Shown: one piece after another, positions 2,617 through 45,330 of the stretch | Position numbering within the stretch: the stretch's first letter is position 1 | How the letters are laid out: the number at the start of each line of letters is the position of its first letter | NCBI RefSeq assembly: GCF_014137945.1 | Contig: NZ_JACGWX010000001.1 | Location: 496,001-560,000, forward strand | Direction of reading: 5' to 3' | Source of the DNA: Microcella alkalica | GTDB taxonomy: Bacteria > Actinomycetota > Actinomycetes > Actinomycetales > Microbacteriaceae | Length of the DNA: 64,000 nt | Made by a program: the position numbers and the translations under genes | Notes under the pieces: generated by a model | Told to the model about the DNA's origin: nothing | Database searches by the model: none | The model's input: only the letters and a program-made list of their open reading frames with translations

Positions 2617-3025
2617 CGCGCGGCGCCTCTGCCCGCCATCCGTCCCGCGCGCCCGCCTCGCGTCACCCGTACCGCCCCCCGCGCCCGCCGGGAGTCACCC
2701 GTACCGCGCCGCCCCGCCCGCGTCACCCGTCCACCCTGCGCGTCAACAACTCAGGACTAGCGAGTCCCCTGTCTTCTCCCTGTCCCCGGAGCCGTGCGGT
2801 TCTGCGCTGCTGCCGAGTCGTGTCGTCCTGAGTTGTTGACGCGGGCCGCGCGAGACCTGCGCCCGTCAACAATTCAGGACGAGCGCGCGAGCGGGGGAGC
2901 GCATCCCGCTCCCGTTCGTGGCAGCTCTCGTGCCGGGGTGCGCTTGTCCTGAATCGTTGACGGACACGCGGCATCGACTCCGGCAGCGCTTGTCCTGAAT
3001 TGTTGACGCACCGGCCGCGCACGAC
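2617..3025. repeat. Array of five GTCRACAAYTCAGGAC repeats downstream of holA
   Basis: This 487-bp gap between the convergent genes holA and rpsT has no convincing gene. It holds five copies of a dispersed 16-mer: + orientation at 2742-2757 (followed by TAG) and 2865-2880; - orientation at 2825-2840, 2946-2961 (one mismatch) and 2992-3007. Copies 2742/2825 and 2865/2946 form two inward-facing inverted pairs spanning 99 and 97 bp, with unrelated sequence between the arms. Just before them, GTCACCCGTACCGC occurs at 2662-2675 and 2694-2707, with a partial third copy at 2722-2730. The rpsT terminator hairpin follows at 3026-3060. Confidence 0.9.
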
Positions 3026-3060
3026 GAAGCCCCGCTCGCCGGGAGGCGGAGCGGGGCTTC
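3026..3060 (-). terminator. Hairpin terminator of rpsT
   Basis: A perfect 12-bp stem (GAAGCCCCGCTC at 3026-3037 paired with GAGCGGGGCTTC at 3049-3060) with an 11-nt loop lies about 45 nt past the rpsT stop codon. There is no T-tract, as is common for terminators in high-GC actinobacteria. It may also stop transcripts from the + strand. Confidence 0.7.
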
Positions 3061-3103
3061 GAGCGGGGCGCGCGCGGCGCCCGACGTGCGGGAGCGGGTG
3101 CGG

Positions 3104-3364
3104 CTAGAGCGCGCCGACCTGCTTGGCGATGGCCGACTTGCGGTTCGCCGCCTGGTTCTTGTGGATGACGCCCTTGCTCGCGGCCTTGTCGAGCTTCTTC
3201 GTCGCGACGACGAGAGCCTCGGCAGCGGCTGCCTTGTCGCCCGCGGCGACGGCCTCGCGCGTGCGACGCACGGCGGTCTTGAGCTCGCTCTTGACCGCCT
3301 TGTTGCGCTCCTGCGCCTTGAGGTTGGTCTTGATGCGCTTGATCTGCGACTTGATGTTCGCCAT
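3104..3364 (-). CDS. rpsT: 30S ribosomal protein S20
   Basis: The 86-residue protein begins [20 protein letters not shown] and is rich in Lys, Arg and Ala, as expected for bacterial S20, which binds 16S rRNA early in 30S assembly. The open frame extends far upstream, but the ATG at 3364 gives the standard family N-terminus and has a GAAAG ribosome-binding site. It is transcribed divergently from lepA, a pairing typical of this group, and ends in a strong hairpin. Confidence 0.97.
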
Positions 3365-3663
3365 GACTGTCTTTCTCGAGTTGAACGGTGTGTGTGAAGC
3401 GGCCGGGGGTGGGGTGCCGTGAGCGCGTGCTCTGTGACGAGCGCTGTCTCGGTGGCGAAATCCCAGCCGCAATCCGTGTCGGAAGAGAGAGGGCTTCCTG
3501 ACACGCAAGCCAACAGGCGACATTACCAGCAGGCGAGCGCCCGCGACAATCGCGAGCGGGGCGCGTCGCGCGGGGCGCGCGCAGAGCGAGTGGCGCGGAT
3601 GCTCGGCCCCGGGCATCCCGTGCGTGACCGCGCCGAGCGACGAGCGTGGGAGAATGGCGCGAC
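3365..3663. other. Divergent rpsT/lepA intergenic region, no gene seen
   Basis: About 300 bp separate the divergent starts of rpsT and lepA. It must hold both promoters. I see a possible -10 box for lepA (GAGAAT at 3650-3655), but I cannot place the rpsT promoter with confidence. No copies of the dispersed repeat occur here. Confidence 0.5.
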
Positions 3664-5535
3664 ATGTCTCCTCGCGCCCTCACGCCGCTCGCCCCCGCGG
3701 CCACCGACCCGACGCTGATCCGCAACTTCTGCATCATCGCGCACATCGACCACGGCAAGTCGACGCTCGCCGACCGCATGCTGCAGATCACCGGGGTCGT
3801 GAGCGACCGCGACATGCGCGCGCAGTACCTCGATCGCATGGACATCGAGCGCGAGCGCGGCATCACGATCAAGAGCCAGGCGGTGCGGATGCCCTGGGCA
3901 CTGCCTCAGGAGGGCGGCAAGCCGCAGACCTACGCCCTGAACATGATCGACACCCCCGGGCACGTCGACTTCACGTACGAGGTGAGCCGCAGCCTCGCCG
4001 CGTGCGAGGGCGCGATCCTGCTCGTCGACGCCGCGCAGGGCATCGAGGCCCAGACGCTCGCGAACCTGTACCTCGCGCTCGAGAACGACCTCACGATCAT
4101 CCCGGTGCTCAACAAGATCGACCTGCCGGCCGCCGACCCGGAGAAGTACTCGCGCGAGCTCGCCCAGCTCATCGGCGGCGACCCGGCCGACGTCCTGCGC
4201 GTGAGCGGCAAGACGGGCGAGGGAGTCGAGGCGCTGCTCGACCGCGTCGTCGAGCTCATCCCCGCCCCCGTCGGCGACCCGACGGCGCCGGCGCGCGCCA
4301 TGATCTTCGACTCCGTCTACGACGCCTACCGCGGCGTCGTGACCTACGTCCGCATGATCGACGGCTCGCTGAGCCCGCGCGAGCGCATCCAGATGATGTC
4401 GACGCGCGCGACGCACGAGCTGCTCGAGATCGGCGTCTCGAGCCCCGAGCCGAGTCCGAGCAAGGGCCTCGGGGTCGGCGAGGTCGGCTACCTCATCACC
4501 GGCGTGAAGGATGTCCGCCAGTCGAAGGTCGGCGACACCGTCACCAACGCTCAGAAGCCTGCTGCGAAGGCCCTCCCGGGCTACACCGACCCCAAGCCGA
4601 TGGTGTTCTCCGGGCTGTACCCGATCGACGGCAGCGACTACCCCGTCCTGCGCGAGGCGCTCGACAAGCTCAAGCTCTCCGACGCCGCGCTCAACTACGA
4701 GCCCGAGACCTCGGTCGCGCTCGGCTTCGGATTCCGCTGCGGGTTCCTCGGCCTTCTGCACCTCGAGATCGTCACCGAGCGCCTCGAGCGCGAGTTCGGC
4801 CTCGACCTCATCTCGACCGCGCCGAGCGTGACGTACGAGGTCACGACCGACGACAAGAAGCACTTCACCGTCACGAACCCGAGCGAGTTCCCGACGGGCG
4901 CGAAGATCGCGAGCGTGAGCGAGCCCATGGTGAAAGCCGCCATCCTCGCCCCGAAGGACTACGTCGGCACGATCATGGAGCTGTGCCAGAGCCGCCGCGG
5001 CAGCCTCATCGGCATGGACTACCTCGGCGAGGACCGCGTCGAGATCAAGTACACGATCCCGCTCGGCGAGATCGTCTTCGACTTCTTCGACCATCTGAAG
5101 AGCAAGACGGCCGGGTACGCGAGCCTCGACTACGAGCCGACCGGCGATCAGGAGGCCGACCTCGTGAAGGTCGACATCCTCCTGCAGGGCGAGGCGGTCG
5201 ACGCGTTCAGCGCGATCGTGCACCGTGAGAAGGCCTACGCGTACGGCGTGCTCATGACCGAGCGCCTCAAGAAGCTCATCCCGCGCCAGCAGTTCGAGGT
5301 GCCCATCCAGGCCGCGATCGGCGCCCGCATCATCGCTCGCGAGTCGATCAGCGCGATGCGCAAGGACGTCCTCGCGAAGTGCTACGGCGGTGACATCACC
5401 CGCAAGCGCAAGCTCCTCGAGAAGCAGAAGGAGGGCAAGAAGCGCATGAAGATGGTGGGTCGCGTCGAGGTTCCGCAAGAGGCCTTCATCGCCGCGCTCT
5501 CAGGCGACGTCGAGAAGGCCAAGGAGAAGAAGTAG
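3664..5535 (+). CDS. lepA: Elongation factor 4 (LepA), translational GTPase
   Basis: LepA is a ribosome-associated GTPase involved in translation under stress and in 30S biogenesis. The 623-residue protein has the G1 motif AHIDHGKST (residues 26-34), the DTPGH motif followed by VDAAQG, NKID, EF-G-like domains III and V, and the LepA-specific C-terminal domain ending [14 protein letters not shown]. The ATG at 3664 is preferred over a GTG at 3646 because GGGAG lies about 11 nt before it. A DUF1990 gene follows after 2 nt, so the two are probably translationally coupled. Confidence 0.97.
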
Positions 5536-5537
5536 CC

Positions 5538-6368
5538 GTGGCCCGCCGACCGCTCGAGCAGCGCGCCGTCACCTACGGGTCGGTGGGCGGCACGCAGGCC
5601 GTCGACCTGCTGCAGTACCCGCCGAAGGGCTACCGCCCGCTCGAGGTGCGCGGCCGCGTCGGCCACGGCGACGCCCGCTGGGAGCACGCCGTCGAGCAGC
5701 TCCTCACCGGCGGCGTCTACCGCGGTGCGGGTCTCGCGGTCCGCATCATCCCCGCATCCGGCGAGCAGGATGCCGCTCACTACCTCCCCGTGAGCTATGA
5801 CGAATCCGGCCAGCCCGTGAGCGCCGCGACGCTCGAGGTTCCCGACGACGAGTTCTCGGCGTCCGGCGAGCGGTACGTGCGCCCCGGCGACACCGTCATC
5901 GTCGGCCCGTCGGTCGGCGGACGCATGCTCTATCCGCTCCCGGGTCGCGTGGTGCTGCGCGAGGAGAGCGACGACCGCGTCCTGTACGCCGTCGGGACTC
6001 TGCCGGGGCATCCGCTCTCGGGTGAGGAGTCCTTCCTCCTCGAGCGCGTCGCCGACGGCGGCATCTGGCTCACCGTCCGCAGCTTCGCGCGCGCCGCCGG
6101 CCCCGGCTGGGCGCTCGCGAATCCCGCGCTCGGGGTGGCGCGGCGCCGGATCGCGCAGCGCTTCCTCCGCGCGCTGTCGGCGCCCATCCCCGGCGCAGGG
6201 CCGCTGCCGTCGCAGCGGCTCGCCGTCGAGGGCGCGCCGAGCGGCTCGAGCCCCGAGCCGAGCCCCGATGAGCCGGTCGAGTCGAGGGCGGCACGGGAGG
6301 TCGCCGCGACCGACGACGCCCCTGCGATCGAGCGCGGCGAGCGCGACGTCGACCCACAGGATTCCTGA
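5538..6368 (+). CDS. DUF1990 family protein
   Basis: The 276-residue protein begins MARRPLEQRAVTYGSVGGTQ, with YPPKGYRPLEVRGRVGHGDARW following, the signature of the DUF1990 (UPF0548) family. The biochemical function is unknown. The core ends near residue 215 (RIAQRFLRAL). The remaining ~60 residues are a Pro/Ser/Glu-rich tail that looks disordered. The GTG start at 5538 follows the lepA stop by 2 nt, so expression is likely coupled to lepA. No catalytic motif can be named. Confidence 0.8.
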   Translation: MARRPLEQRAVTYGSVGGTQAVDLLQYPPKGYRPLEVRGRVGHGDARWEHAVEQLLTGGVYRGAGLAVRIIPASGEQDAAHYLPVSYDESGQPVSAATLEVPDDEFSASGERYVRPGDTVIVGPSVGGRMLYPLPGRVVLREESDDRVLYAVGTLPGHPLSGEESFLLERVADGGIWLTVRSFARAAGPGWALANPALGVARRRIAQRFLRALSAPIPGAGPLPSQRLAVEGAPSGSSPEPSPDEPVESRAAREVAATDDAPAIERGERDVDPQDS

Positions 6369-6370
6369 CC

Positions 6371-6376
6371 TACGCT
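6371..6376 (+). promoter_or_regulatory. -10 box of a leaderless-type promoter
   Basis: TACGCT ends 6 nt before the GTG at 6383. This places the expected transcription start at or next to the start codon. Confidence 0.5.
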
Positions 6377-6382
6377 GAACCC

Positions 6383-7803: not shown

Positions 7804-7821
7804 GCGCGGCTCGCGCCGCAC

Positions 7822-7827
7822 TAGAGT
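7822..7827 (+). promoter_or_regulatory. -10 box (TAGAGT) of a leaderless-type promoter
   Basis: TAGAGT ends 6 nt before the GTG start at 7834. There is no ribosome-binding site between them, which fits a leaderless transcript. Confidence 0.55.
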
Positions 7828-7833
7828 CTGATC

Positions 7834-9144: not shown

Positions 9145-9150
9145 ACCGGC

Positions 9151-13829: not shown

Positions 13830-14698
13830 GCCGGCTCAGCGTGCCTAAGACCTACAAGCTCGCGATCGGCGGCGCGTTCCCGCGCAGCGAGAGCGGCCGC
13901 ACCTACGTCGTGACGGCGCCCTCGGGCGAATTCATCGCGAACGCCTCGCTCGCCTCGCGGAAGGACGCGCGGGATGCCGTCGTCGCGGCCCGCGGCGCGC
14001 AGCCCAAGTGGGCGGGCGCGACGGCCTACAACCGCGGCCAGGTGCTCTACCGCATCGCCGAGCTGCTCGAGGGGCGTCGCGCGCAGTTCGTCGACGAGAT
14101 CGTGCAGTCGGAGGGCGTCACGGCCACCGCCGCGGGCGCCCAGGTCGACGCGACGATCGACCTCTGGGTCTGGTACGCCGGCTGGGCCGACAAGTACGCG
14201 CAGCTCGCGGGCAACGGCAACCCCGTCTCCGGCCCGTACTTCAACCTCTCGGTGCCCGACGCGACGGGCGTCGTCGCGGCGATCGCGCCGCAGGATTCCA
14301 CCGGCGTCTCGCTGCTCGGCCTCGCGGCGGTCGTCGCACCCATCGTGCTCTCGGGCAACACGGTCGTCGTCGTCGCGAACGAGGCGGCGCCCCTCTCGGC
14401 CATCTCGCTCGCGGAAGTGCTTGCGACGTCGGACGTGCCGGGCGGAGTCGTCAACGTGCTCACCGGCTCGCCCGCCGAGCTCGCGCCGTGGCTCGCGTCG
14501 CACGCTGACGTCAACGCGCTCGACCTCGCCGGGGCCGGCTCGCTCGCCGACGGCGCGTGGGTCGACCTGCAGATCTCTGCGGCCGAGACGCTCAAGCGCG
14601 TCCTCCCGCCCGTCGAGGGGGCCCCGGCGCCCTCCCTCGAGCGGATCACCGCCTTCGTCGAGACGAAGACGGTCTGGCACACGAAGGCGATGCTCTAG
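13826..14698 (+). CDS. Aldehyde dehydrogenase-like protein lacking the catalytic cysteine and C-terminal half
   Basis: The 290-residue protein aligns with the N-terminal, NAD-binding part of aldehyde dehydrogenases (YKLAIGGAFPRSESGRTYVV, VAAIAPQDSTGVSLLG, GNTVVVVANEAAPLS, VVNVLTGSP). It then ends soon after the region that would carry the catalytic Glu and Cys, with the tail FVETKTVWHTKAML. I find no cysteine in the protein. The reading frame is intact and coupled to the active enzyme by a GTGA overlap, so this does not look like a decaying pseudogene. The ~500 + ~290 residue arrangement resembles ALDH16, where an active domain is fused to a vestigial one. A structural or oligomerisation role is inferred. 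Confidence 0.85.
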   Translation: MSRLSVPKTYKLAIGGAFPRSESGRTYVVTAPSGEFIANASLASRKDARDAVVAARGAQPKWAGATAYNRGQVLYRIAELLEGRRAQFVDEIVQSEGVTATAAGAQVDATIDLWVWYAGWADKYAQLAGNGNPVSGPYFNLSVPDATGVVAAIAPQDSTGVSLLGLAAVVAPIVLSGNTVVVVANEAAPLSAISLAEVLATSDVPGGVVNVLTGSPAELAPWLASHADVNALDLAGAGSLADGAWVDLQISAAETLKRVLPPVEGAPAPSLERITAFVETKTVWHTKAML

Positions 14699-14715
14699 CG
14701 CTCGCCCTCGTGCCC

Positions 14716-14750
14716 GGCGGGCCGGTCCTTGTGGTGGGGGCCGGCCCGCC
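14716..14750. terminator. Bidirectional hairpin terminator between the ALDH operon and panE
   Basis: A perfect 10-bp stem (GGCGGGCCGG at 14716-14725 with CCGGCCCGCC at 14741-14750) and a 15-nt loop fill most of the 64-bp gap between convergent genes. It is well placed to end both transcripts. Confidence 0.75.
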
Positions 14751-14762
14751 CTTCCTCGCGCG

Positions 14763-15773
14763 TCAGTCGGTGCGAGCCGGGTCGTTCCCGCGCGGCACGC
14801 GCACGAGCACCTCGGCCGGGGGGAGGAACTCGCCCGTGCGCTCGACCTCGTGGACGAGCGCGACCATCGCGGCGTTCACCGGCGTGGGGATGTGCAGTCG
14901 AGCCGCGGCATCCGCGACCGCCCCGTTGAGGGCGTCGATCTCGGTGCTCCGACCCCGACGGATGCTTTGCAGCGTCGACGCGGGGTTCGGCACGTCTCCC
15001 ATGCGCGCGGCGAGCGATCGCGGCAGCCGCTCGGCGTGCGCCGAGTCGTCCGCGAGCAGCTCCTCGACCTGCGCGGCGCCCACGGAGCCCAGCTGCGCCC
15101 ACTTCACCCCGAGCGCCCGGCCGACGACCGCCGTCTCGACCATGCCGCGCGCGAGGACGCGCCGGAGCCCGTCGTGGGCGACGACCTGCTGCACGCTGAG
15201 CCCGGTGATCGCGGGGAGAGCGTTGACCTGGTTGACGAGCAGCTTCGTCCACTGGGCCCCGCGCACGTCGTCGGTCACCGTCACCTCCTCGGGAAGCGCG
15301 GCGCGCAGGGCGGGCAGGGCAACGGCGATGGCGGCCGCGTCGCCGGCGAGCGTGAGAGGCGCGGGCCCCGTCACCGACACATGCCCCGGCACGACGAGGC
15401 TCGCGGCGAAGAGCGCGAAACCGATGGCGACGGGGGAGTGCGGCAGGGCATCGCGCGCCGCGTCGGCGCCGCCGAGGCCGTTCTGCACGACGAGCACCGG
15501 GGTTCCGTCGCAGCCCGTGATCGCGCTCAGCGCCGCCGCCGAGTCGTGCGCCTTCGTCGCGAGCACGATGAGATCGACGGGCGGCTCGACGCGCTCGACG
15601 ACCGGCACGCGGGCGAGGAACGAGCCCCAGCCGCCGGAGAGCTCCAGTCCGTCGCGCGCGATCGCTGCGCCGTGCTCGCCCCGGGCGGTCACGACGACGT
15701 CGTCGCCCGCGCGCGACAGGAGCGCGGCGAGCACGCCGCCGATAGCCCCCGCCCCTACGACCGCGATCCGCAC
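14763..15773 (-). CDS. panE: Ketopantoate reductase family protein
   Basis: The 336-residue protein begins MRIAVVGAGAIGGVLAALLSRAG, the Rossmann signature of ketopantoate reductases (NADPH-dependent reduction of 2-dehydropantoate to pantoate in coenzyme A synthesis). It also has LIVLATKAHD, VVQNGLGG, the WTKLLVNQVNALPAITG segment with the catalytic Lys, and STLQSIRRGRSTEIDALNG near the C-terminus. Paralogues act on other 2-oxo acids, so the substrate is not certain. A TAGGAT -10 box ends 6 nt before the GTG start, suggesting a leaderless message. It is divergent from truB. Confidence 0.87.
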   Translation of the reverse strand: MRIAVVGAGAIGGVLAALLSRAGDDVVVTARGEHGAAIARDGLELSGGWGSFLARVPVVERVEPPVDLIVLATKAHDSAAALSAITGCDGTPVLVVQNGLGGADAARDALPHSPVAIGFALFAASLVVPGHVSVTGPAPLTLAGDAAAIAVALPALRAALPEEVTVTDDVRGAQWTKLLVNQVNALPAITGLSVQQVVAHDGLRRVLARGMVETAVVGRALGVKWAQLGSVGAAQVEELLADDSAHAERLPRSLAARMGDVPNPASTLQSIRRGRSTEIDALNGAVADAAARLHIPTPVNAAMVALVHEVERTGEFLPPAEVLVRVPRGNDPARTD

Positions 15774-17935: not shown

Positions 17936-18116
17936 GTCGACAACTCAGGACTAGTCCGCGCGCGGCTCGCGTCGACAACTCAGGACTAGCGGTGCTCGCG
18001 CCTCGATCTGCCGCGGCCGAGCATCCCGCGCCGCATGCTGCAGGGCGATAGTCCTGAGTTCTCGACGGGCTCCTTGTCCTGAGTTCTGCACGCGCCGGTA
18101 GTCCTGAGTTTTCGAC
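17936..18116. repeat. Five repeat copies between the HAD and hemW genes
   Basis: The 260-bp divergent gap holds five copies of the dispersed 16-mer. Two face + (17936-17951 and 17971-17986, both GTCGACAACTCAGGAC followed by TAG). Three face - with diverged 3' ends (18051-18066, 18076-18091 and 18101-18116). The left pair and the right triplet face inward like the two-arm units elsewhere, so this looks like a unit whose arms have multiplied. In the - copies AACTCAGGAC is invariant while the GTCRAC half varies. Confidence 0.9.
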
Positions 18117-30447: not shown

Positions 30448-30627
30448 GTCAACAACTCAGGACTAACGAGAGCCGCGCGTGCGCGGGCGCCCGAGTTAGC
30501 GCTCGCTGGACGAGAACCTCACGCTCGTGGTCCTGAGTTGTCGACGCGCGCCGCCGCTCGGCGCGCGCTGGCGTGCGACTCCCTCCCGTGTCGCGCTGAG
30601 CCCCGGGTGTCAACAACTCAGGACTAG
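30448..30627. repeat. Three repeat copies after leuA, the last interrupted by an IS
   Basis: Copies lie at 30448-30463 (+), 30530-30545 (-) and 30609-30624 (+, followed by TAG to 30627). The first two make a 98-bp inward-facing pair starting 14 nt past leuA. The third is the left arm of a second unit whose right arm is at 31644-31659, now separated by the IS element. No gene is seen in this stretch. Confidence 0.9.
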
Positions 30628-31154
30628 GGCGTGTCTCCTAAGCGTTTGAGCCAGAGTGTGATGGCTCGCAGGACCGCGCCGCCGCGGTAGGTGAGCGCGA
30701 GTTTGTCGTATCTGGTGGCGAGCCCACGCCATTGCTTGTCTTCGTTGAAGCCGCGTTCGACAACGTTGCGACCCTTGTAGTCCTCGACGTCGTAGCTGAC
30801 TGGTCGCCCGCCACGGGAGCCGCGACGCTGCCGGTGTCCCTGCTGGTCGGAGGGCTCGGGGATCACGGCGACGATCCCGCGTTCGCGCAGGCGGGTGCGG
30901 ATGGCACGCGAGGAATACGCCTTGTCGCCGCGGACGCGGTCCGGTCTCGAGCGGGGCCTGCCCGGGCCACGCCGGCCAACTTTGAGGTGGTCCATGAGCA
31001 CGGGGAACATCGGGGCATCGCCGGCCTGCCCGGGGCCGACCAGCACGACCAGCGGTAGCCCGCGGCCGTCGACGAGGTGGTGGATCTTCGTGCTCAACCC
31101 TCCGCGTGACCTGCCAATCGCGTGGTCAGGCGGCTCCTCCCGCAAATTCTTGTA
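30624..31154 (-). CDS. IS5-family transposase, C-terminal frame (orfB)
   Basis: The productive part of this frame starts near REEPPDHAIGRSRGGL and holds the second catalytic Asp (RVRGDKAYSSRAI) and the catalytic Glu (RNVVERGFNEDKQW) of a DDE transposase of the IS427 type. It joins orfA by a +1 frame change near 31145. The final stop codon TAG lies in the CTAG target sequence outside the element (30624-30626), so translation depends on the insertion site. The frame is open upstream to 31370, but that part is only orfA in another frame. Confidence 0.88.
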   Translation of the reverse strand, partial: YKNLREEPPDHAIGRSRGGLSTKIHHLVDGRGLPLVVLVGPGQAGDAPMFPVLMDHLKVGRRGPGRPRSRPDRVRGDKAYSSRAIRTRLRERGIVAVIPEPSDQQGHRQRRGSRGGRPVSYDVEDYKGRNVVERGFNEDKQWRGLATRYDKLALTYRGGAVLRAITLWLKRLGDTP

Positions 31155-31566
31155 ACTCGATAGAGCCCCCTGTGTCGCGCGGGAGGTTCGTTGCGTGCTG
31201 ATGCGCACGGTTGATGGTGGAGTCCACGCTGACGGCCCATTCGATCTCGCCCGCTGCGTCCGCGTCAGCGAGGATCTCGGCGTAGATACGATCCCAAGTG
31301 CCGTCTCCGCTGAACCGGCGATGACGCTTCCACGCGGTCTGCCACGGCCCGAACTCGGCGGGCAGATCACGCCACGGCGAACCCGTCCGATACCGCCACA
31401 CGATCCCCTCCAGCACCCGACGATGCTCCTGAAACGGTCGCCCGCCCTTGCGGGAAGCGATCGGCATCAAAGGCTCGATCCGAGCCCAAGCAGAATCCGA
31501 CAAAGTACGAGTACGCGTCACGCTCCCAGCCTGCCGCAACATCCCGCAGAGGTTACGAGACACGCC
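30628..31566 (-). mobile_element. IS5-family (IS427-like) insertion sequence, 939 bp
   Basis: Terminal inverted repeats are GGCGTGTCTCCTAAGC on the left and GGCGTGTCTCGTAACC read inward on the right (14 of 16 match). CTAG flanks both ends (30624-30627 and 31567-31570), consistent with a 4-bp target duplication at a CTAG site, which is known for IS5 relatives. The transposase is split in two frames on the - strand, and both frames appear intact. The left CTAG is the last four bases of a dispersed repeat copy. Confidence 0.9.
31126..31521 (-). CDS. IS5-family transposase, N-terminal frame (orfA)
   Basis: This 131-codon frame encodes the N-terminal part of an IS427-type transposase: TLSDSAWARIEPLMP, GGRPFQEHRRVLEGIVWRYRTGSPWRDLP, and the first catalytic Asp in WAVSVDSTINRAHQHA. 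The GTG at 31521 is taken as the start; an ATG at 31542 is also possible. Full-length transposase would need a ribosomal frameshift into orfB near GAATTTGCGGGAGG. Confidence 0.85.
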   Translation of the reverse strand: MTRTRTLSDSAWARIEPLMPIASRKGGRPFQEHRRVLEGIVWRYRTGSPWRDLPAEFGPWQTAWKRHRRFSGDGTWDRIYAEILADADAAGEIEWAVSVDSTINRAHQHATNLPRDTGGSIELQEFAGGAA

Positions 31567-31640
31567 CTAGCCGCTTCGGCCGGCGAGCAGTACGGCGCAA
31601 CTCCAAGCCTGCGCGGCTCGCGTCGTGCACCCGAGCCGCA

Positions 31641-31659
31641 CTAGTCCTGAGTTGTTGAC
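31641..31659 (-). repeat. Repeat copy right of the IS
   Basis: CTAGTCCTGAGTTGTTGAC is the full 19-bp form in reverse orientation. Without the IS and one CTAG, it would lie 108 bp from the start of the left arm at 30609, the usual spacing of a two-arm unit. Confidence 0.9.
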
Positions 31660-36145: not shown

Positions 36146-37780
36146 ATGCACGTCGTCGTCGTCGGCTCGGGCCTCGCGGGCCTGCTCACGGCCCTGCGCG
36201 TTGCCGCCGGCGCGGGCGCGGGCGCGTCGACAATTCAGGACATCACGCTCGTGACGGCGGGCCCGCTGGGCTCCGGGTCCAGTCCCTGGGCGCAGGGCGG
36301 CGTCGCCGCCGCGACCGGCCGCGACGACAGTCCTGAATTGCACACCGCCGACACCATCGAGGCCGGTGCCGGCCTCGTCGACGCGGATGCCGCGCTCGCC
36401 CTCTGCCGGGAGGCTCCCGCCGCGATCGCCGAGCTCCTCGATCTCGGCGTCGCCTTCGACCGCGATGCGACGGGCGACCTCGCACGCGGTCTCGAGGCCG
36501 CGCACTCGCGAGCGCGCATCCTGCACGCCGGCGGCGACGCCACCGGCGCGCGTATCGTCGACGCCCTCGCGCGGGTCGTCAGGGCGAGCCGGGTGACGGT
36601 GCTCGAGCGCGTGCGTGCGTCGAGCATCCTGACCCGCGACGGGGCGGCGGTCGGCGTCGCCCTCACCGACGCGACTGGCGCGCGTCGTGATGTCGCCGCC
36701 GAGGCCGTCGTGCTCGCGACCGGTGGCTACGGCGGACTCTACCCCCGCACCACCAACCCGGCGAGCGCGATCGGCAGCGGCATCGTGCTCGCGCACGCCG
36801 CGGGGGCGATGGTCGCCGACCTGGAGTTCGTGCAGTTCCACCCGACGGTTCTGGTCGGCGGAGGGCTGGTCTCCGAGGCCGTGCGCGGCGAGGGGGCGGT
36901 GCTGCGCGACGCGCGCGGGCGCCGCTTCATGACCGAGGTGGATGCTCGAGCCGAGCTCGCTGCCCGTGACATCGTCGCCCGCGCGATCGCCCGCACGATG
37001 CGCGAGCAGGGCGGAGCGCCAGTGCTGCTCGACGCACGCGACGTGGCCGCCCGGCTCGGGGGAGCCGTCGCGCTCGCACGGCGCTTCCCGACGATCGACC
37101 GGCTCGTCCGAGCGCAGGGCGCGGACTGGTCGCGCGAGCCGGTGCCCGTGACTCCCGCGGCGCACTACGCCATGGGCGGGGTGCTCGCCGACCTCGATGG
37201 CCGAACGACCGTTCCCGGGCTGTTCGCTGTGGGCGAAACCGCCGCGACGGGGGTTCATGGGGCGAACCGCCTCGCCTCGAACTCGCTCCTGGAGGCCGCC
37301 GTCATGGCGCGGCGTTTGTCGACGCGCCTGCTCGCCGACCCGCTGTCGACAATTCAGGACAACCTGATCCCGACGGGCCTCGAGGTCGTTCCCGCACCCG
37401 CCCCCGATTCGCAAACGGATGTTCGCCCCGAGGTGCTTCGATCACTCGACTCCGACCGACTCCGCGACCGGGCGTGGGCGGTGCTCGGGCTCGAGCGCGA
37501 TGGCGACTCGATGGCCGCCCTCGCCCGAGAACTGGCGGGATCCTGGCCCGGCGATACCTCCGTCGAGACGCTGCTGCCCCTCGCCCAACTCGTTACGGAG
37601 GCCGCGCAGGCCCGGGTCGAATCGCGCGGCGCCCACTGGCGAGCGGACGCACCTCGCCCTCTCGACACCCAGCGGGTTCGGCGCGCTTGGACCCGGTCGG
37701 CGATCGCTCGTCCTGAATTGTTGACGGTGCCCGCCGCCGCGGCACCCGCCCCTGCCCCCGCCGACCGAGGAGCCGCATGA
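36146..37780 (+). CDS. nadB: L-aspartate oxidase, carrying in-frame repeat copies
   Basis: NadB oxidises L-aspartate to iminoaspartate with FAD. The 544-residue protein has the FAD motif GSGLAGL (residues 7-13), SSPWAQGGVAA, ATGGYGGLYPRTTNP, EFVQFHPTVL, and HGANRLASNSLLEA. Dispersed repeats occur in frame: at 36226-36241 (encoding STIQD at residues 28-32), a partial copy at 36330-36340 (SPEL), 37345-37360 (STIQD) and 37710-37725 (PELLT). They fall in the loop before the second strand of the FAD domain, at the domain border, and near the C-terminus. nadC starts in a 4-nt overlap. Confidence 0.94.
   Translation: MHVVVVGSGLAGLLTALRVAAGAGAGASTIQDITLVTAGPLGSGSSPWAQGGVAAATGRDDSPELHTADTIEAGAGLVDADAALALCREAPAAIAELLDLGVAFDRDATGDLARGLEAAHSRARILHAGGDATGARIVDALARVVRASRVTVLERVRASSILTRDGAAVGVALTDATGARRDVAAEAVVLATGGYGGLYPRTTNPASAIGSGIVLAHAAGAMVADLEFVQFHPTVLVGGGLVSEAVRGEGAVLRDARGRRFMTEVDARAELAARDIVARAIARTMREQGGAPVLLDARDVAARLGGAVALARRFPTIDRLVRAQGADWSREPVPVTPAAHYAMGGVLADLDGRTTVPGLFAVGETAATGVHGANRLASNSLLEAAVMARRLSTRLLADPLSTIQDNLIPTGLEVVPAPAPDSQTDVRPEVLRSLDSDRLRDRAWAVLGLERDGDSMAALARELAGSWPGDTSVETLLPLAQLVTEAAQARVESRGAHWRADAPRPLDTQRVRRAWTRSAIARPELLTVPAAAAPAPAPADRGAA
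36226..36340. repeat. Repeat copies inside the nadB 5' region
   Basis: A full copy GTCGACAATTCAGGAC (+, 36226-36241) and a partial reverse copy GTCCTGAATTG (36330-36340) lie about 120 bp apart in inward orientation. Both are read in the nadB frame. The partial copy may be chance because SPEL is a plausible NadB sequence. Confidence 0.75.
37345..37725. repeat. Repeat copies inside the nadB 3' region
   Basis: GTCGACAATTCAGGAC (+, 37345-37360) and GTCCTGAATTGTTGAC (-, 37710-37725) lie 381 bp apart facing inward. Both are read in frame, as STIQD and PELLT. The spacing is longer than the usual ~100 bp, and the spacer is coding sequence of the C-terminal helical domain. Confidence 0.88.
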
Positions 37781-38643: not shown

Positions 38644-39825
38644 ATGACGATCATCGACCTCGACCAGGCGGCGACAGCATCCGTGCGCCGTCGCGTGCTC
38701 GAGGCGATGTGGCCGCACCTGACGGCCGACTACGGCAACCCGTCGAGCACGCACGCGTTCGGGCGGCGCGCCGCCGACGCCCTCGAGGAGGCCCGCGCCC
38801 GCATCGCGCGCCTCCTCGGCGTGCGGGCGGGTCAGATCGTGTTCACGTCGGGAGGCACCGAGGCCGACAACCTGGGAGTCATCGGGCTGACGCTCGCCGC
38901 GATCGCCGCCGGGCGCGACCGACACGTCGTGGTCGGGGCCGTCGAGCACGAGGCGGTCCTCGCCGCGGCCGAGCACCTCGCGCGCTGGCACGGGGTTGAG
39001 GTCTCCCGGCTCGGTGTCGACGAGTTCGGGCGGTACTCGGCATCCGAGCTCGAGGCGCTGCTGCGGCCGGGCACGGCGCTCGTCGCCGTGCAGCACGCCA
39101 ACAACGAGGTCGGGACGATCCAGCCCGTCGACGATCTCGTGCGCGCGGCACGGGCCGCGGGGGCGCGCGTTCACGTCGACGCCGTGCAAATGGCGGGGTG
39201 GATGCCCGTGGTGCCGGCCGCGACCGGCCGCGCATCGACCGGAACGGTCGTCGATGCCCGCCCCGACGGCGTCGCGATCAGCGGGCACAAGCTGGGGGCG
39301 CCGAAGGGGGTCGGGGCGCTGATCCTCCCGACCGGAGCTGCCGTCGAGCCTCTCATCCACGGCGGAGGCCAGGAGCGCGAGCGCCGCTCGGGCACCGAGA
39401 ACGTGGCGGGGGCCGTGGGGCTCTCGGTCGCGCTCGAGCTCGCCGAGCAGGAGCGCCGCGAGGTCGTGGCCGCGGTCACCGTGCGCCGCGATCGCTTCAT
39501 CGCCGACGTGGTCGCGAGCGTTCCGGGGGCGGCGCTCACCGGGCATCCGACCGAGCGTCTGCCGGCGCACGCGTCGTTCGTCGTCCCGGGAGTCGGCGGC
39601 GAGTCGCTGCTCATCGCCCTCGACGAGCGTGGCGTGATCGCCTCGAGCGGGTCGTCCTGCGCCGCCGGCCGAGACGACCCGTCGCCCGTGCTGCTCGCGA
39701 TGGCGTGGCCGGCCGAGGTGGCCCGCACGGCGCTGCGCTTCAGCTGGGGCGCGTCAACAACTCAGGACGAACTGCAGGCGGCCGTCGGGATGCTCGCGCG
39801 CTCGGCCGCCGCGCTGCGAGTCTGA
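38644..39825 (+). CDS. NifS/IscS-like cysteine desulfurase of the nad operon
   Basis: The 393-residue protein has the PLP lysine Lys216 in ISGHKLGAPKG and the active-site Cys339 in SSGSSCAAGRD. It also has the NifS N-terminus IIDLDQAATASVRRRVLEAM and NPSSTHAFGR. A dedicated desulfurase next to nadABC supplies sulphur for the NadA Fe-S cluster, as known for the nad-linked NifS of Bacillus. A repeat copy (39753-39768) is read in frame as STTQD near the C-terminus (WGASTTQDELQAAVG). Confidence 0.92.
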   Translation: MTIIDLDQAATASVRRRVLEAMWPHLTADYGNPSSTHAFGRRAADALEEARARIARLLGVRAGQIVFTSGGTEADNLGVIGLTLAAIAAGRDRHVVVGAVEHEAVLAAAEHLARWHGVEVSRLGVDEFGRYSASELEALLRPGTALVAVQHANNEVGTIQPVDDLVRAARAAGARVHVDAVQMAGWMPVVPAATGRASTGTVVDARPDGVAISGHKLGAPKGVGALILPTGAAVEPLIHGGGQERERRSGTENVAGAVGLSVALELAEQERREVVAAVTVRRDRFIADVVASVPGAALTGHPTERLPAHASFVVPGVGGESLLIALDERGVIASSGSSCAAGRDDPSPVLLAMAWPAEVARTALRFSWGASTTQDELQAAVGMLARSAAALRV

Positions 39826-39860
39826 GAGTGCCGCTTCCGCGGTAGTCCTGAATTGTTGAC
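39753..39860. repeat. Repeat pair bracketing the 3' end of the cysteine desulfurase gene
   Basis: GTCAACAACTCAGGAC (+, 39753-39768, inside the gene) and GTCCTGAATTGTTGAC (-, 39845-39860, intergenic) form a 108-bp inward-facing pair. The stop codon (39823-39825) lies between the arms. Confidence 0.92.
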
Positions 39861-39935
39861 GAGCGCCGCCGGCTCGAGCCGCCCGACCCCGGCGCGGGCG
39901 CTCCGCGTGCCCCGCCCCGCGCGCGATACTGGAGC

Positions 39936-40829
39936 GTGCCCACCTACCGTGACGAAGCCGTCGTGCTGCGCACCCACAAGCTGGGCGAGGCCGACCGCAT
40001 CGTGACGATGCTCAGCCGGCACCACGGCAAGATCCGCGCGGTGGCGAAGGGCGTGCGGCGCACCGGCAGCCGCTTCGGCAGCCGCCTCGAGCCCTTCATG
40101 GTCGCCGACGTGCAGCTCTACGTCGGGCGCAGCCTCGACATCGTGCAGCAGGCCGAATCGCTCGGCAGCTACGGCGCCGAGATCAGCGACGACTACGGCA
40201 GCTACACCGCCGCGAGCGTCATGGTCGAGACCGCCGACAAGGTCACCGACGACGACGGCGGAGGAGTCCAGCAGTACCTCCTCCTCGTCGGCGCCCTCCG
40301 CTCGCTTGCCCGTCGCGAGCACGTCCCGAGCCTGACCCTCGACTCGTACCTGCTGCGGGCGCTGTCGATCGCCGGATGGGCGCCGAGCTTCGGCGACTGC
40401 GCCGTCACCGGCGCGCCCGGCCCCCACAGCCACTTCGTGGTGCAGTTCGGAGGCATGGTCGCCGCCGACGTCGCACCGCCCGGGTCTCCGCGCGTGAGCC
40501 GGGAGGCTCTCGCGCTGCTCACGGCCCTCCTCACGGGCGACTGGGCGACAGCGGATGCGTCCGACGAGCGCACGCGCAACCAGGCGAGCGGCATCATTGC
40601 CGCGTACACGCAGTTCCACCTCGAGCGCGGGCTGCGCAGCTTGCCGCACGTCGACCGCGGCGCGCCGAGCGCCCCCGCCTCGCGTCGCGCGGCCGCGGCC
40701 CCCGCCGAGACGTCGGCCGGGCATCCGCCCCCCGGGGCCCGCTCCGAGGCCGCGCCCGTGTCGACAACTCAGGACGACCCGCACGACGGCGTCGCGCACG
40801 ACACCCCGACGATCGGAGTCCCCGCGTGA
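39936..40829 (+). CDS. recO: DNA repair protein RecO
   Basis: RecO loads RecA with RecR and anneals single strands. The 297-residue protein has an N-terminal OB fold ([23 protein letters not shown], split: [17 protein letters not shown] and RIVTML), [26 protein letters not shown], and a helical C-terminal domain. The last ~50 residues are a low-complexity extension that holds a repeat copy (40760-40775, read as STTQD). The GTG start follows a GATACT box by 5 nt. uppS overlaps by 4 nt. Confidence 0.92.
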
Positions 40830-40947
40830 GCCGAGAGCCCCGCAGCCCCGGAATTCCGCGCCAGAGCAGGGCGGCCCGCCGCGCCGCCGAGGCCGAGCCG
40901 CTGCGCCCGATCGACTGGACGGGCGAGCGCAGTCCTGAGTTGTCGAC
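40760..40947. repeat. Repeat pair spanning the recO/uppS junction
   Basis: GTCGACAACTCAGGAC (+, 40760-40775) in the recO tail and GTCCTGAGTTGTCGAC (-, 40932-40947) in the uppS 5' region face inward, spanning 188 bp. The recO stop and uppS start (40826-40829) lie between them. Both copies are in frame: STTQD and SPELST. Confidence 0.9.
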
Positions 40948-41668: not shown

Positions 41669-41733
41669 ACTGGGCATTTCGCGCGACAGCCGCCGGGCAT
41701 CCAGCTCGGCGCGATCTCTAGGAGACCCCCACC

Positions 41734-43119
41734 GTGGCAGCCCCCACCCGTCTGGATTCCGTCATCTCCCTCGCCAAGCGGCGCGGATTCGTGTTCCAGG
41801 CCGGTGAGATCTACGGCGGGTCGCGCTCGGCGTGGGACTACGGCCCCCTCGGCGTGGAGCTCAAGGAGAACATCAAGCGCCAGTGGTGGAAGACCATGGT
41901 GCAGAGCCGGCACGACGTCGTCGGGCTCGACTCGAGCGTCATCCTGCCCAAGCGCGTGTGGGAGGCCTCCGGTCACGTCGAGGTCTTCAGCGACCCGCTG
42001 GTCGAGTGCCTCAGCTGCCACAAGCGCTACCGCGCCGACCACCTCGAGGAGGAGTTCGAGGCGAAGAAGGGCCGCAAACCCGAGAACGGCCTCGCCGACA
42101 TCGTGTGCGTGAACTGCGGAAACCGCGGGCAGTGGAGTGAGCCGCGCGAGTTCTCCGGCCTGCTGAAGACCTTCCTCGGACCGGTCGACGACGAGAGCGG
42201 CCTGCATTACCTGCGCCCCGAGACCGCGCAGGGCATCTTCGTCAACTTCGTCAACGTGCTGAACGCCGCGCGCATGAAGCCCCCGTTCGGCATCGGCCAG
42301 ATCGGCAAGAGCTTCCGCAACGAGATCACGCCGGGCAACTTCATCTTCCGCACGCGCGAGTTCGAGCAGATGGAGCTCGAGTTCTTCGTCGAGCCGGGCA
42401 CCGACGAGGAGTGGCACCAGTACTGGATCGACCTGTCGGAGGCCTGGTTCACCGGCCTCGGCATCAGCCCCGAGAACATCCGGCAGTACGAGCACCCGGC
42501 CGAGAAGCTCTCGCACTACTCCAAGCGCACGGTCGATCTCGAGTACCGCTTCGGCTTCACCGGTGGGGAGTGGGGCGAGCTCATGGGCGTCGCGAACCGC
42601 ACCGACTTCGACCTGTCGACGCACGCCGCCGCCTCGGGCACCGACCTTTCGTACTTCGACCAGGGCAAGAACGAGCGCTGGACGCCCTACGTCATCGAGC
42701 CCGCGTTCGGTCTCACCCGCGCCCTCATGGCGTTCCTCCTCGACGCCTATGCCGAGGATGAGGCGCCCAATACCAAGGGCGGGGTCGACAAGCGCACGGT
42801 GCTGCGCCTCGACCGCCGGCTCGCGCCCGTCAAGGCGGCGGTTCTTCCGCTCAGTCGCAACGAGCAGCTGTCGCCCGTCGCGCGCGAGCTCGCCGACCGC
42901 CTGCGCCAGCACTGGAACGTCGACTTCGACGACGCCGGCGCGATCGGACGCCGCTACCGCCGTCAGGACGAGATTGGCACGCCCTTCTGCATCACGGTCG
43001 ACTTCGGCACCCTCGACGACCAGGCCGTGACCGTACGCGAGCGCGACACCATGGCGCAGGAGCGCATCCCGCTCGAGCGGCTCGCGGCCTACCTGGCCGG
43101 CGAGCTCCTCGGAGCCTAA
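41734..43119 (+). CDS. glyS: Glycine--tRNA ligase (dimeric type)
   Basis: The 461-residue class II synthetase has [24 protein letters not shown], the zinc-like [25 protein letters not shown], motif 2 region [29 protein letters not shown] (in parts), and the C-terminal anticodon domain. It is the alpha2 (eukaryote-like) glycyl-tRNA synthetase usual in actinobacteria. An upstream TAGACT box (41666-41671) overlaps the uppS stop. The 215-bp region after it contains only a repeat pair. Confidence 0.96.
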
Positions 43120-43131
43120 AGCCCGCGGTTC

Positions 43132-43217
43132 GTCAACAATTCAGGACTAGTCGGGACGCTCGGTGCGCGAAAAGCTTTCTGAGACGTCTGGGCGCGCGTT
43201 CGTCCTGAGTTGTTGAC
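43132..43217. repeat. Repeat pair downstream of glyS
   Basis: GTCAACAATTCAGGAC followed by TAG (+, 43132-43150) and GTCCTGAGTTGTTGAC (-, 43202-43217) face inward over 86 bp, starting 13 nt after the glyS stop. The remainder of the 215-bp gap up to 43334 shows no gene. Confidence 0.93.
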
Positions 43218-43334
43218 GCGCCATGCCGCGCGACCGGCGCGGGCCGCTCCTCCCCAGCGAGCAACCTACGCACCCCGTCCCGCGCGGCCCCGCTCGCGCG
43301 CGGCACGAGCACGACCGCGCTGCACACTCGTCGC

Positions 43335-44354
43335 GTGTTCGAGGCTCTGGTCGAGGAGGTCCGCCGCGCGGGCGGGGCGGCCGGGCGCGCCCACTTGGTC
43401 GCAGCCGGACATCCCGACCGCGTTCTCGCGGCCGCCGTGCGCGGGGGCGTGCTCACGCGCGCCCGCCGGGGCTGGTACTCGACATGGGCCAGCGACGACC
43501 CGCGCATCCACGCGCTCCGGCTGGGTGGGCGGCTGACGGGGCTCAGCGCCGTTCGGGCTTGGGGCGGCTGGGTGCGACGCCCGGGGCGGATGCACGTCGC
43601 CACGCCCGTCAACGCCTCGCGCCTGCGCTGCCCGCGCCGACGGAGGGTCGCCTTCGCCGATTCGCCCGTCCGCACCGAGGTCGTCCTGCACTGGACCCGT
43701 CGCCACCACGACCGCGACACCTCGACGGGCGTGGTGCCGCTCATCGAGGCGCTCGAGCTCGTCTGCCTCGTCGAGGCTGATGAGGACGCGATCGCGGCGA
43801 TCGACTGGGCGCGTCGCTCCGGGCGGGCGGATGCTCTGGACTTAGCAGAGCTCCAGCGTCGACTCCCGCCACGCCGACGCCGACTGGTCGTCGCGTCGAG
43901 CGGGTCGTGCCACTCCCTGCCGGAGAGCCTCGTGCGCACGAGACTGACGGATGCCGGTCTGCGCGTGCGCGAACAGGTTCTGCTGCCCGACGATCCGAGC
44001 CCGATCGATCTCCTGATTGAGGAGTCCGTCGCGCTCGAGGTCGACGGCGAAGCCTTCCACCGCGAGCGCTTCTACCCGGACCGCTCGAAGGATCTCGCCG
44101 CGACCCGGTCGGGCTTCCATGCGCTCCGGCCGGCGGCGAGGCACGTGTTCGACGAGTGGCCCGCAGTGCTGGAGGCGATCCGTGTGGCCCTCGCGGCCCG
44201 GGGCGTTCCGCCCCCGCGCCCGAGCAACCCGGGCCGAGCATCCCGCGTCGACAATTCAGGACGACCGCGACGATGCCGCAGGCGCACCCGCGCGAATCCG
44301 CGGTCGGCGAGCCTGCGTCCGCGCCGACCGCCCCCGATCGTCCTGAGTTGTTGA
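43335..44354 (+). CDS. AbiEi-antitoxin-like / DUF559 protein with repeat-derived C-terminus
   Basis: The 339-residue protein starts with a winged-helix AbiEi-like region (AAGRAHLVAAGHPDRVLAAAVRGGVLTRARRGWY in parts: AGRAHLVAAGHPDRVL, GGVLTRARRGWY) and ends with a DUF559 (Vsr-like nuclease fold) domain: PESLVRTRLTDAG, PIDLLIEESVALEVDGEAFH, RSKDLAATRSGF. Such proteins are common in Microbacteriaceae; their role is unknown. A repeat pair (44247-44262 and 44340-44355) encodes VDNSG and the final IVLSC, and the right arm provides the TGA stop. The native C-terminus was probably about residue 300. Confidence 0.75.
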   Translation: MFEALVEEVRRAGGAAGRAHLVAAGHPDRVLAAAVRGGVLTRARRGWYSTWASDDPRIHALRLGGRLTGLSAVRAWGGWVRRPGRMHVATPVNASRLRCPRRRRVAFADSPVRTEVVLHWTRRHHDRDTSTGVVPLIEALELVCLVEADEDAIAAIDWARRSGRADALDLAELQRRLPPRRRRLVVASSGSCHSLPESLVRTRLTDAGLRVREQVLLPDDPSPIDLLIEESVALEVDGEAFHRERFYPDRSKDLAATRSGFHALRPAARHVFDEWPAVLEAIRVALAARGVPPPRPSNPGRASRVDNSGRPRRCRRRTRANPRSASLRPRRPPPIVLSC

Positions 44355-44355
44355 C
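44247..44355. repeat. Repeat pair forming the 3' end of the DUF559 gene
   Basis: GTCGACAATTCAGGAC (+, 44247-44262) and GTCCTGAGTTGTTGAC (-, 44340-44355) face inward over 109 bp, both read in the gene frame. The TGA stop of the gene is the GTTGA part of the right arm. Confidence 0.92.
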
Positions 44356-44419
44356 GTCGGCCCGGCGCGCGCGTCACTGACCGCGGGAATACCGCCCCGC
44401 CCCACGCGTTGCCCTCAAC

Positions 44420-45091
44420 ATGAGCCGCCCTATCGACGTGCAGATCTGGTCCGACGTGCAGTGCCCGTGGTGCTACATCGGGAAGCGGAAGTTCGAGGCG
44501 GCGGTCGCCGAGTTCGAGGCCTCAGGCGGCGAGGTCGAGGTCACCTACCGCAGCTTCGAGCTCGCACCCGACACTCCCGTCGACTTCGAGGGCACTCCCA
44601 TCGACTACCTCAGCCAGCGAAAGCGCATCAGTCCCGAGCAGGCGCAGCAGATGGTCGATCGCGTCTCCCGCATCGCCGAGAGCGTGGGCCTTGCGTACCA
44701 CTACGACCGCATCCACCAGACGAACACAGTCCTCGCCCATGAACTGCTGCACTTCGCGAAGGCGCACGGCGCGCAGGTCGAGCTCAAGGAGCGTCTGCTT
44801 CGCGCGTACTTCACCGAGGGCCGCCACATCGGTCGCGCCGATGACCTCGCCGACCTTGCCGCCGACGTCGGGCTCGCCCGCGCCGCCGCCGCAGCAGCCC
44901 TCGCCGAGCACACATATCTGCCCGACGTGAAGGCAGACATGGCGCAGGCGGTCGCCTACGGCATCCAGGGTGTGCCGTTCTTCGTGATCGACTCGCGCTA
45001 CGGCATCTCGGGCGCGCAGGAGTCGGCCACGTTCCTCTCCGCCCTGCGTCAGGCGGCCGATGAGCGCGACACCACCGAGGTGGCCTCATGA
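44420..45091 (+). CDS. DsbA-family oxidoreductase (FrnE type)
   Basis: The 223-residue protein has the thioredoxin-fold active site CPWC (Cys15, Cys18) in SDVQCPWCYIGKRKFE and the FrnE/YwbO family parts HQTNTVLAHELLHFAKAHG, FTEGRHIGRADDLADLAADVG, and YGIQGVPFFVID with the cis-Pro. It has no signal peptide, so it is likely cytoplasmic. A small downstream frame starts in a 4-nt overlap (ATGA). Confidence 0.92.
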   Translation: MSRPIDVQIWSDVQCPWCYIGKRKFEAAVAEFEASGGEVEVTYRSFELAPDTPVDFEGTPIDYLSQRKRISPEQAQQMVDRVSRIAESVGLAYHYDRIHQTNTVLAHELLHFAKAHGAQVELKERLLRAYFTEGRHIGRADDLADLAADVGLARAAAAAALAEHTYLPDVKADMAQAVAYGIQGVPFFVIDSRYGISGAQESATFLSALRQAADERDTTEVAS

Positions 45092-45330
45092 CGGCGGATG
45101 CTGCCCCGAAGCCCTTCGCGATGCTCGGCGATCCCGCCGCCGAGGCGTGCGAGGGCGACGCCTGCCCGCTCCCGCCCCGCCCCGCGTCAACAACTCAGGA
45201 CTACCGCCGCACGGCTCCGCCCCGAGCCGCGTCGCAGCGCGGGCACGCGACGGTCAGCGCGCCGCTCGTCCTGAGTTCTCGACACCGCTCGCGCGGCGCG
45301 GGCCTCAGCCCGCGGCCTGCGGCTCGCTGA
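45088..45330 (+). CDS. Possible small CxxxxC protein coupled to the DsbA-family gene
   Basis: An 80-codon frame starts with ATGA overlap at the stop of the DsbA-family gene: MTADAAPKPFAMLGDPAAEACEGDACPLPPR. The first ~32 residues look like a real small protein with a Cys pair, and translational coupling supports expression. The rest runs through a repeat copy (45186-45201, read as STTQD) and low-complexity sequence and may be a repeat-caused extension. No function is known to me. Confidence 0.45.
   Translation: MTADAAPKPFAMLGDPAAEACEGDACPLPPRPASTTQDYRRTAPPRAASQRGHATVSAPLVLSSRHRSRGAGLSPRPAAR
45186..45283. repeat. Repeat pair between the DsbA-family and YbaK genes
   Basis: GTCAACAACTCAGGAC (+, 45186-45201) and GTCCTGAGTTCTCGAC (-, 45268-45283) face inward over 98 bp. 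The right arm shares the GAGAAC variant with one copy upstream of hemW. Confidence 0.92.

Follow-up and report, generated by a model that had tools for sequence, protein, structure and literature searches.

Clustered inverted repeats in Microcella alkalica as probable half-sites of a nuclease-type protein encoded among them

Short inverted pairs with variable spacers, dispersed in a genome and tied to a single gene, are typical of REPIN/RAYT systems, and in MatP/matS, ParB/parS, RacA, and Noc one protein has many sites in part of a chromosome. Three further systems bear on the locus described below: an EDxHD homing endonuclease forms a dimer on its target, which spans nearly 60 bp (PMC3943268), AbiEi antitoxins bind and bend DNA at inverted repeats within the promoter of their own gene (PMC7319586), and a DUF559 nuclease of Caulobacter causes a DNA damage response once a genome-wide methylation mark is removed (PMC12907096). 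Here, we describe a family of 16-mer repeats (arms) in a 64-kb stretch of Microcella alkalica (contig NZ_JACGWX010000001.1, positions 496,001 to 560,000; the window). Most form inverted pairs (units) and cluster around a gene for a nuclease-type protein, termed the reader. The 16-mers are probably half-sites of this protein, and the function we favor is that the units would dock and restrain it as a resident homing endonuclease-like module. Searches of the open-licence literature found no description of such sites, of DUF559 with inverted repeats, or of AbiEi with DUF559. Genomes, contigs, and loci carry our own identifiers (G, C, and L numbers).

A phased family of inverted arms around one gene

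Allowing three mismatches, GTCRACAAYTCAGGAC had 29 matches in the window (22 exact, 4 with one mismatch, and 3 with three), whereas 100 dinucleotide shuffles averaged 1.06 matches and never gave more than 3. The match at 48197 resembles a chance hit. Across the whole genome (2.74 Mb, 13 contigs), 31 of the 32 matches with at most one mismatch fell within a 76-kb region that includes the entire window (C1:484847-560225), and a reversed control pattern gave none. Arms beyond the window edges were located ∼11 kb upstream (C1:484847/484917) and 0.1 to 0.2 kb past its end (C1:560106-560225). The repeat is genuine and other than random mobile debris. Nearly all arms were paired in one orientation, plus arm left and minus arm right. 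The initial annotation had reported the excess over chance, the clustering, the orientation, and the coordinates of the pairs, all of which held, as did the spans of 86 to 109 bp for the pairs that it listed; three wider pairs were missing from its list (104, 172, and 365 bp between arm starts).

Among 117 inverted pairs of <125 bp from 11 genomes, start-to-start distances were 70/71 bp (29 pairs), 80 to 84 bp (64), 92 to 94 bp (16), or 103/104 bp (8), with intermediate values absent, although many pairs are orthologous and the counts are not independent. The spacings of short pairs form a helical ladder of ∼11 bp, which the source genome repeats on its own (11 pairs). A few pairs are much wider (172, 208, and 344 to 374 bp) and lie off the ladder. 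Extra arms in the same direction, with neighbors at <70 bp (n = 43), were spaced by 33 to 36 bp (12), 44 to 46 bp (11), or 54 to 57 bp (16) in 39 cases, and relatives carry symmetric ++-- and +++--- arrays.

Only the arms are common to different units; conservation of interiors between loci was not seen, as had been noted for the spacers, and arm positions 4 and 9 vary freely between the two arms of one pair. Judged by gap length, intergenic units resemble added segments. No Rfam family reached the gathering score at the units. On visual inspection, terminator-like hairpins are present in some interiors, and GAGCATCC was seen in hairpins within several units. In G000, 11 of 33 arms lie inside genes by our own gene calls, and 14 of the 22 intergenic arms occupy convergent gaps. 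The insertion sequence (IS) reported earlier within one pair (30609/31644) is IS5 type, with DDE_Tnp_1 and DUF4096 open reading frames (ORFs) at ∼30627-31563 on the minus strand, and is inserted directly after the left arm.

The reader gene (43335-44354, plus strand), unnamed in the initial annotation, sits in the densest part of the arm cluster, between a glycyl-tRNA synthetase-like gene (glyS) and a DSBA-domain gene, and its stop codon is located within the right arm of the unit that follows it. Its product has an AbiEi-like winged helix (residues ∼1 to 50), a middle region (∼60 to 180), and a Vsr/EDxHD-like nuclease domain (∼190 to 290). The winged helix is of the AbiEi type and the catalytic fold is Vsr-like (AF2, VIA-align); the catalytic domain of the homing endonuclease I-Bth0305I is included in its two best fold matches. 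Candidate active-site residues, as aligned among orthologs, are E197, D225, D237, H242, and D249 (21 of 21 orthologs) and E235 (20 of 21; D in G022). Pfam still labels DUF559-type proteins as "protein of unknown function." A profile search of PDB sequences gave no matches at E ≤ 1, NCBIfam returned no families, and Pfam placed no Y1-type transposase domain in the reader. No AbiEii toxin gene lies directly beside the gene. Most reader loci read have a pair on each side of the gene; at the G010 and G019 loci, the motif used did not detect the downstream one.

Arm spelling and reader alleles across genomes

At one mismatch or fewer, the GTCRACAAYTCAGGAC spelling matched 21 of 60 genomes, the source genome included, and a pattern covering all spelling types matched 24 of 26 Microcella genomes, the exceptions being G007 and G009. 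Within 299 sampled genomes of the family, 14 matched, of which 6 were Microcella and the remaining 8 had one to four exact matches. A co-occurring protein family, which the initial annotation had proposed seeking, is provided by the reader: orthologs (52 to 100% identity) were found in 23 of the 26 Microcella genomes, and gene and sites were jointly absent from G007 and G009, which are 97 to 99% complete. One discordant genome, G025 (71% complete), had nine sites and no reader found. The region is syntenic among relatives, and the reader was located by comparing the glyS-DSBA gap, which measured ∼1.3 kb in all but one of 11 carriers (7.5 kb in G010), against 38 bp in G009 and 39 bp in G007. 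In these last two genomes the nadB and nifS arms are absent (a 24-nucleotide gap, substituted, or deleted), and nadB outside the arms diverges by 0.19 to 0.22 from carriers. Arm density was highest within 10 kb of the reader in the four genomes counted. Using a dif consensus, the distance from recO to dif was 278 to 298 kb in seven of eight mapped genomes and 103 kb in G015, where the arm cluster stays with the reader despite the altered distance. When viral contigs were scanned with an arm pattern, 20 isolated matches of CTCC type were obtained; at loci L207 to L226, no reader homologue was detected (tblastn, E ≤ 1e−4). Searching 198 genomes of the phylum with one paralog identified four genomes at E ≤ 1e−8, the source genome among them.

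To compare spellings, ∼100 kb around recO was read in 12 genomes. Three of these (G004, G013, and G017) have few or no GTCRACAAYTCAGGAC matches and carry CTCCACAATTCAGGAG at many equivalent places and spacings, and in G010 and G019 the spelling is GTCGACAACTCAGGAG. By arm type, the 21 orthologs divide into 8 GTC..GAC, 3 GTC..GAG, and 10 CTC..GAG. On the reader tree these types need two changes, the minimum, with weak support for the GAG group (34/49). A tree of recO, uppS, and glyS (19 genomes) placed G008 and G024 with G000, G002, and G020 (100/99, inner order unresolved), yet both have a CTC-type reader and CTC-type arms (18 of 18 and 10 of 10, respectively, on the contigs read). Their identity to G000 is 95% and 99% in glyS and 89% in recO, and 52% and 51% in the reader. 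Likewise, G022 falls among CTC species (100/99, 97/95), yet has a GTC-type reader and arms. The arm spelling in these trees tracks the reader and not the neighboring genes, and G008/G024 and G022 are apparent allele swaps.

Arms change spelling without changing position, and this holds within coding genes as well. For the recO-uppS pair, G008 and G024 retain a spacing of 172 bp, matching G000, G002, and G020, and not the 82 bp found in G004, G013, and G017. At three loci, arms differed at 5 to 7 of 32 positions between types and at 0 to 2 of 32 within types, and divergence outside the arms was 0.16 to 0.46 and 0.12 to 0.40, respectively. Between genes 10 and 11, the units of G022 have kept an interior homologous to that of their CTC relatives, with changed arms and an altered core. 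A single CTC-type pair with a CGACACGCC core lies amid the GTC-type region of G002 (C2:561065) and is possibly a relic of an older reader.

This core was largely tied to units in three CTC-type genomes, where 34 of its 45 occurrences (∼299 kb) were in units, 36 to 37 bp from the nearer outer unit end in either orientation, with one exception; GACACGCC was present in 30 of the 36 short units of the same genomes. In G000, G006, and G022, CGACACGCC occurred zero, eight, and six times, never in a unit. In the wider family, GACACGCC was found in 8 of 70 units against 0.4 expected, and because the commonest 8-mer in shuffles averaged 6.6, this figure leans on GACACGCC having been named beforehand. 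Across 38 modules, arm similarity followed the middle region (r = 0.29, P = 0.0005) and not the winged helix (r = 0.03, P = 0.29), correlations that are drawn from few clades; the winged helix had been expected to set arm spelling and is unsupported in that role. Among the orthologs, residue 99 of the middle region is C with every GAC type, D or N with GAG types, and N, S, or T with CTC types, and 26 alignment columns in all set GAC apart from the other two types, again as correlations across few clades.

The reader gene and the arm pairs of the window are collected in Table 1. Elsewhere in the window, a Guanidine-III riboswitch (Rfam RF01763; 59174-59239, minus strand) lies directly upstream of a 107-amino-acid ORF (58841-59164, minus strand) that, from this context, is probably a guanidinium exporter. 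A further sequence, GCGAGCATCC, was over-represented in G009 (16 copies per 100 kb of region L158 to L162 versus 0.96 expected) and in other Microcella regions.

TABLE 1 Reader gene and arm pairs in the window, with distances between arm starts in bp; window gene names rest in part on Pfam
Feature	Position	Strand	Basis
Solo unit, convergent holA-rpsT gap, 83	2742-2840		Motif scan, Pfam
Solo unit 2865/2946 (81) plus additional minus arm at 2992	2865-3007		Motif scan
Array + + - - - between HAD-hydrolase gene and radical-SAM gene, one arm with 3 mismatches	17936-18116
Solo unit following leuA, 82	30448-30545
Solo unit split by IS5-type element	30609-31659
Pair 36226/36330 within nadB, 104, minus arm with 3 mismatches	36226-36345
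Wide pair 37345/37710 within nadB, 365; spacing identical in G002, G022, G004, G013, and G017	37345-37725
Pair across 3′ end of nifS-like aminotransferase gene, 92	39753-39860
Pair 40760/40932 across recO-uppS junction, 172; spacing identical in G002, G020, G008, and G024	40760-40947
Upstream bracketing unit of reader gene, plus arm 43132, minus arm 43202, 70	43132-43217		Motif scan
Reader gene, 339 amino acids, GTG start	43335-44354	+	Pfam, AF2, VIA-align
Downstream bracketing unit 44247/44340 (93), overlaps 3′ end of reader gene	44247-44355		Motif scan
Solo unit following DSBA-domain gene, 82	45186-45283

Bracketing arms in the wider nuclease family

Paralogs of the reader in the same genus (∼30 to 36% identity) often carry arms of their own on one or both sides. 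A bracketing score was based on an inverted pair on one side of the gene and a matching pair on the other, with a threshold of 37 and a pair scan limited to arms ∼14 bp long at 45 to 112 bp. This score was reached by 18 of 27 genus paralogs, which are a selection from a longer list and, with many orthologs at one locus, are not independent, by 17 of 29 homologs found elsewhere in the order (other genera and families), and by none of 150 ordinary Microcella genes (best, 36). With a simpler score, 15 of the 29 order homologs ranked above all 60 controls. Three of the 17 (L303, L307, and L320) are near-identical whole-unit duplicates and may be something else. In all but 3 of the 35 scoring modules, the spacings on the two sides differed by no more than 2 bp, an agreement that the score does not force, and interiors were mostly unrelated. 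Scoring modules have one unit upstream of the nuclease gene.

Fourteen further homologs included seven at or above the threshold, among them the source-genome paralogs on contigs C11 (39) and C4 (37); the one on C2 was below it (33). In five paralog regions, de novo counts of 9- to 13-mers revealed no arrays, while pair scans did reveal bracketing arms. Loci L279, L286, L288, L283, and L290 have both flanks in common; the first two carry TGTCCGCTCGCCCCGG, L288 and L283 another spelling, and no arms were found in L290. Altogether, seven such look-alike module sets share flanks across species. Of the 14 further homologs, those from genus g72 reached the threshold in four of seven cases, and in one g72 genome (G221) 59 arms of GTYCACAAYTCAGGAS (at most one mismatch), mostly in pairs at 70/71 bp, are spread over five contigs and bracket a homologous nuclease gene; in G167 and G098, arms of a related spelling stand on both sides of the nuclease.

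Several further arrays were also observed. One g72 genome has a dense alternating-arm array (G310:C5:300288-300740) ∼31 kb from the homologue on that contig, and in another genus, L194 (G338) has six same-direction arms and one opposite arm (at most two mismatches) over ∼960 bp (4857-5817) between two minus-strand genes. At the intergenic place matching window positions 14698-14763, symmetric arrays in G006 and G015 (+ + - before, + - - after) bracket a small non-nuclease ORF, which looks membrane type by eye.

Possible functions and comparison with known systems

At the level of sequence comparison, the arms and the nuclease are linked by co-occurrence, joint absence, co-switching, helical phasing, and bracketing, a pattern that points to a partnership of a DNA-cutting-type protein with its own genome. 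Modeled on the EDxHD homing endonuclease dimer and on AbiEi, two reader subunits would bind the two inverted arms on the same helix face, with the nuclease domains meeting over the spacer. The units flanking the gene would dock and autoregulate the reader, and the dozen or so further units near the gene in Microcella would be extra self-docking sites that hold the nuclease bound and harmless. When a new allele arrived through gene transfer, selection would rewrite the arms to match, and when the gene was lost, the arms would decay. Restraint by the sites is the least certain element; it would explain why arms are rewritten once an allele is swapped, why they decay where the gene is lost, and why they crowd around it. 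We raise only tentatively, as a possibility short of likely, the narrower proposal of a site-addicted Vsr-type nuclease that is tolerated only with paired, self-spelled docking sites, such that an allele swap forces the rewriting of dozens of sites, housekeeping codons included.

The main rival is homing or drive, in which the units would be landing and cutting sites: a cut at the center would be followed by copying of the gene, or of a bare unit, into the site, so that solo units would be empty or vacated sites and ++-- arrays nested insertions. The I-Bth0305I fold match, genes bracketed by two complete units, symmetric nested arrays, and the frequency of the central GACACGCC are in keeping with this, as is the conflict between the reader and neighbor trees, which suggests that reader alleles were exchanged between lineages. 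However, two units remain intact at the occupied locus and dozens of such units are tolerated, arms in coding genes are rewritten without import of a unit, paired arrays in G006 and G015 also bracket non-nuclease ORFs, and flanks shared across species in seven module sets mean that little movement is seen; on balance we regard homing as rather unlikely. The last two observations also weaken a hopping transposon of the form unit-gene-unit.

Three other explanations were weighed against docking and restraint of the reader. Chromosome organization, with the protein bridging units to fold an 80-kb domain and the nuclease fold being structural, would suit the regional cluster, the helical phasing, the paired and multi-arm arrays, and the arms in coding genes; it is improbable given that the cluster accompanies the reader and not the origin or terminus, the candidate active-site residues are kept in 20 or 21 of 21 orthologs, two nearly complete genomes lack the system, and the arms of G221 are dispersed. 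Sites of the matS or KOPS kind were rejected since the cluster is not tied to dif. Transcription control, in which the units are operators or terminator-linked elements and the protein a regulator, is equally improbable: AbiEi does bind its own promoter repeats (PMC7319586), scoring modules place one unit upstream of the gene, and convergent gaps and terminator-like hairpins fit terminators, but convergent gaps should be promoterless, a third of the G000 arms are intragenic, and the surrounding genes have no visible common theme. The binding of a protein, one of the roles offered by the initial annotation, gains support by comparison in the form of a nuclease-type protein encoded in the cluster, and its specific suggestion of a nucleoid or ordinary regulatory protein does not. 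Passive debris of an unrelated element, like a miniature inverted-repeat transposable element (MITE) or a REPIN, is very improbable; unit gain and loss by gap length and the short inverted arms recall it, and the added look of intergenic units agrees in part with the mobile arms proposed earlier, but the trees contradict such debris, arms are rewritten in place in a coordinated way that follows the nuclease allele and is not expected of passive MITEs, interiors are unconserved between loci, and arms lie in coding sequence. Two further roles proposed earlier are not supported: DNA uptake, given that the sites occupy a single 76-kb stretch, and long-loop RNA, given arm variants that do not covary, the helical ladder, and the lack of an Rfam match at the units. 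Integron attC-like cassettes, CRISPR, and IS remnants were considered and rejected.

A group of DUF559-type proteins with AbiEi-like heads thereby gains candidate cognate DNA sites that are readable from the genome, with many genes having their own spelling. In the apparent swaps, ∼10 to 25 arms per genome fit another protein than that of close relatives, offering a rare opportunity to follow how a DNA-binding protein and its sites coevolve, and the paired-arm code could yield many new DNA-binding specificities. Sites that restrain the nuclease would represent a new kind of self-recognition, and sites that are cut a new kind of homing element. Site addiction, if true, would be a self-mark of DNA sequence rather than methylation, family-wide in the order.

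Compared with I-Bth0305I, the reader was not seen in an intron and is bracketed by two intact paired-arm units; its chromosome keeps many units, and its cleavage is putative. Insertion of an EDxHD/Vsr homing endonuclease gene destroys its own target, whereas bracketing pairs are intact at most reader loci. Relative to AbiEi and Rv2827c, the reader is a winged helix fused to a nuclease, without an adjacent AbiEii, and its arms lie on both sides of the gene, some 45 to 110 bp apart, whereas gaps of 3 or 13 bp are known for the AbiEi repeats; arms lie upstream of the gene as candidate binding sites. VsrA of Caulobacter shares the DUF559 nuclease domain, although its mark is cytosine methylation and its proposed role mismatch repair, and paired sites are not described in the part of the text available (PMC12907096).

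MatP/matS, ParB/parS, RacA, and Noc are alike in having one protein with many sites in a confined region, but the reader sites are not tied to the origin or terminus, their protein is of nuclease type, and they are rewritten with the allele. Unlike REPIN/RAYT, the reader lacks a Y1-type domain (the genome was not scanned for a Y1 transposase), the arms are not restricted to extragenic positions, the Microcella arms are clustered, and their spacings follow an 11-bp ladder. MITEs and IS ends have a conserved interior and fixed ends, whereas here the interiors are unrelated and the arms change in place, and DNA uptake sequences have genome-wide copies, whereas nearly all arms in the source genome lie in a single region around the reader.

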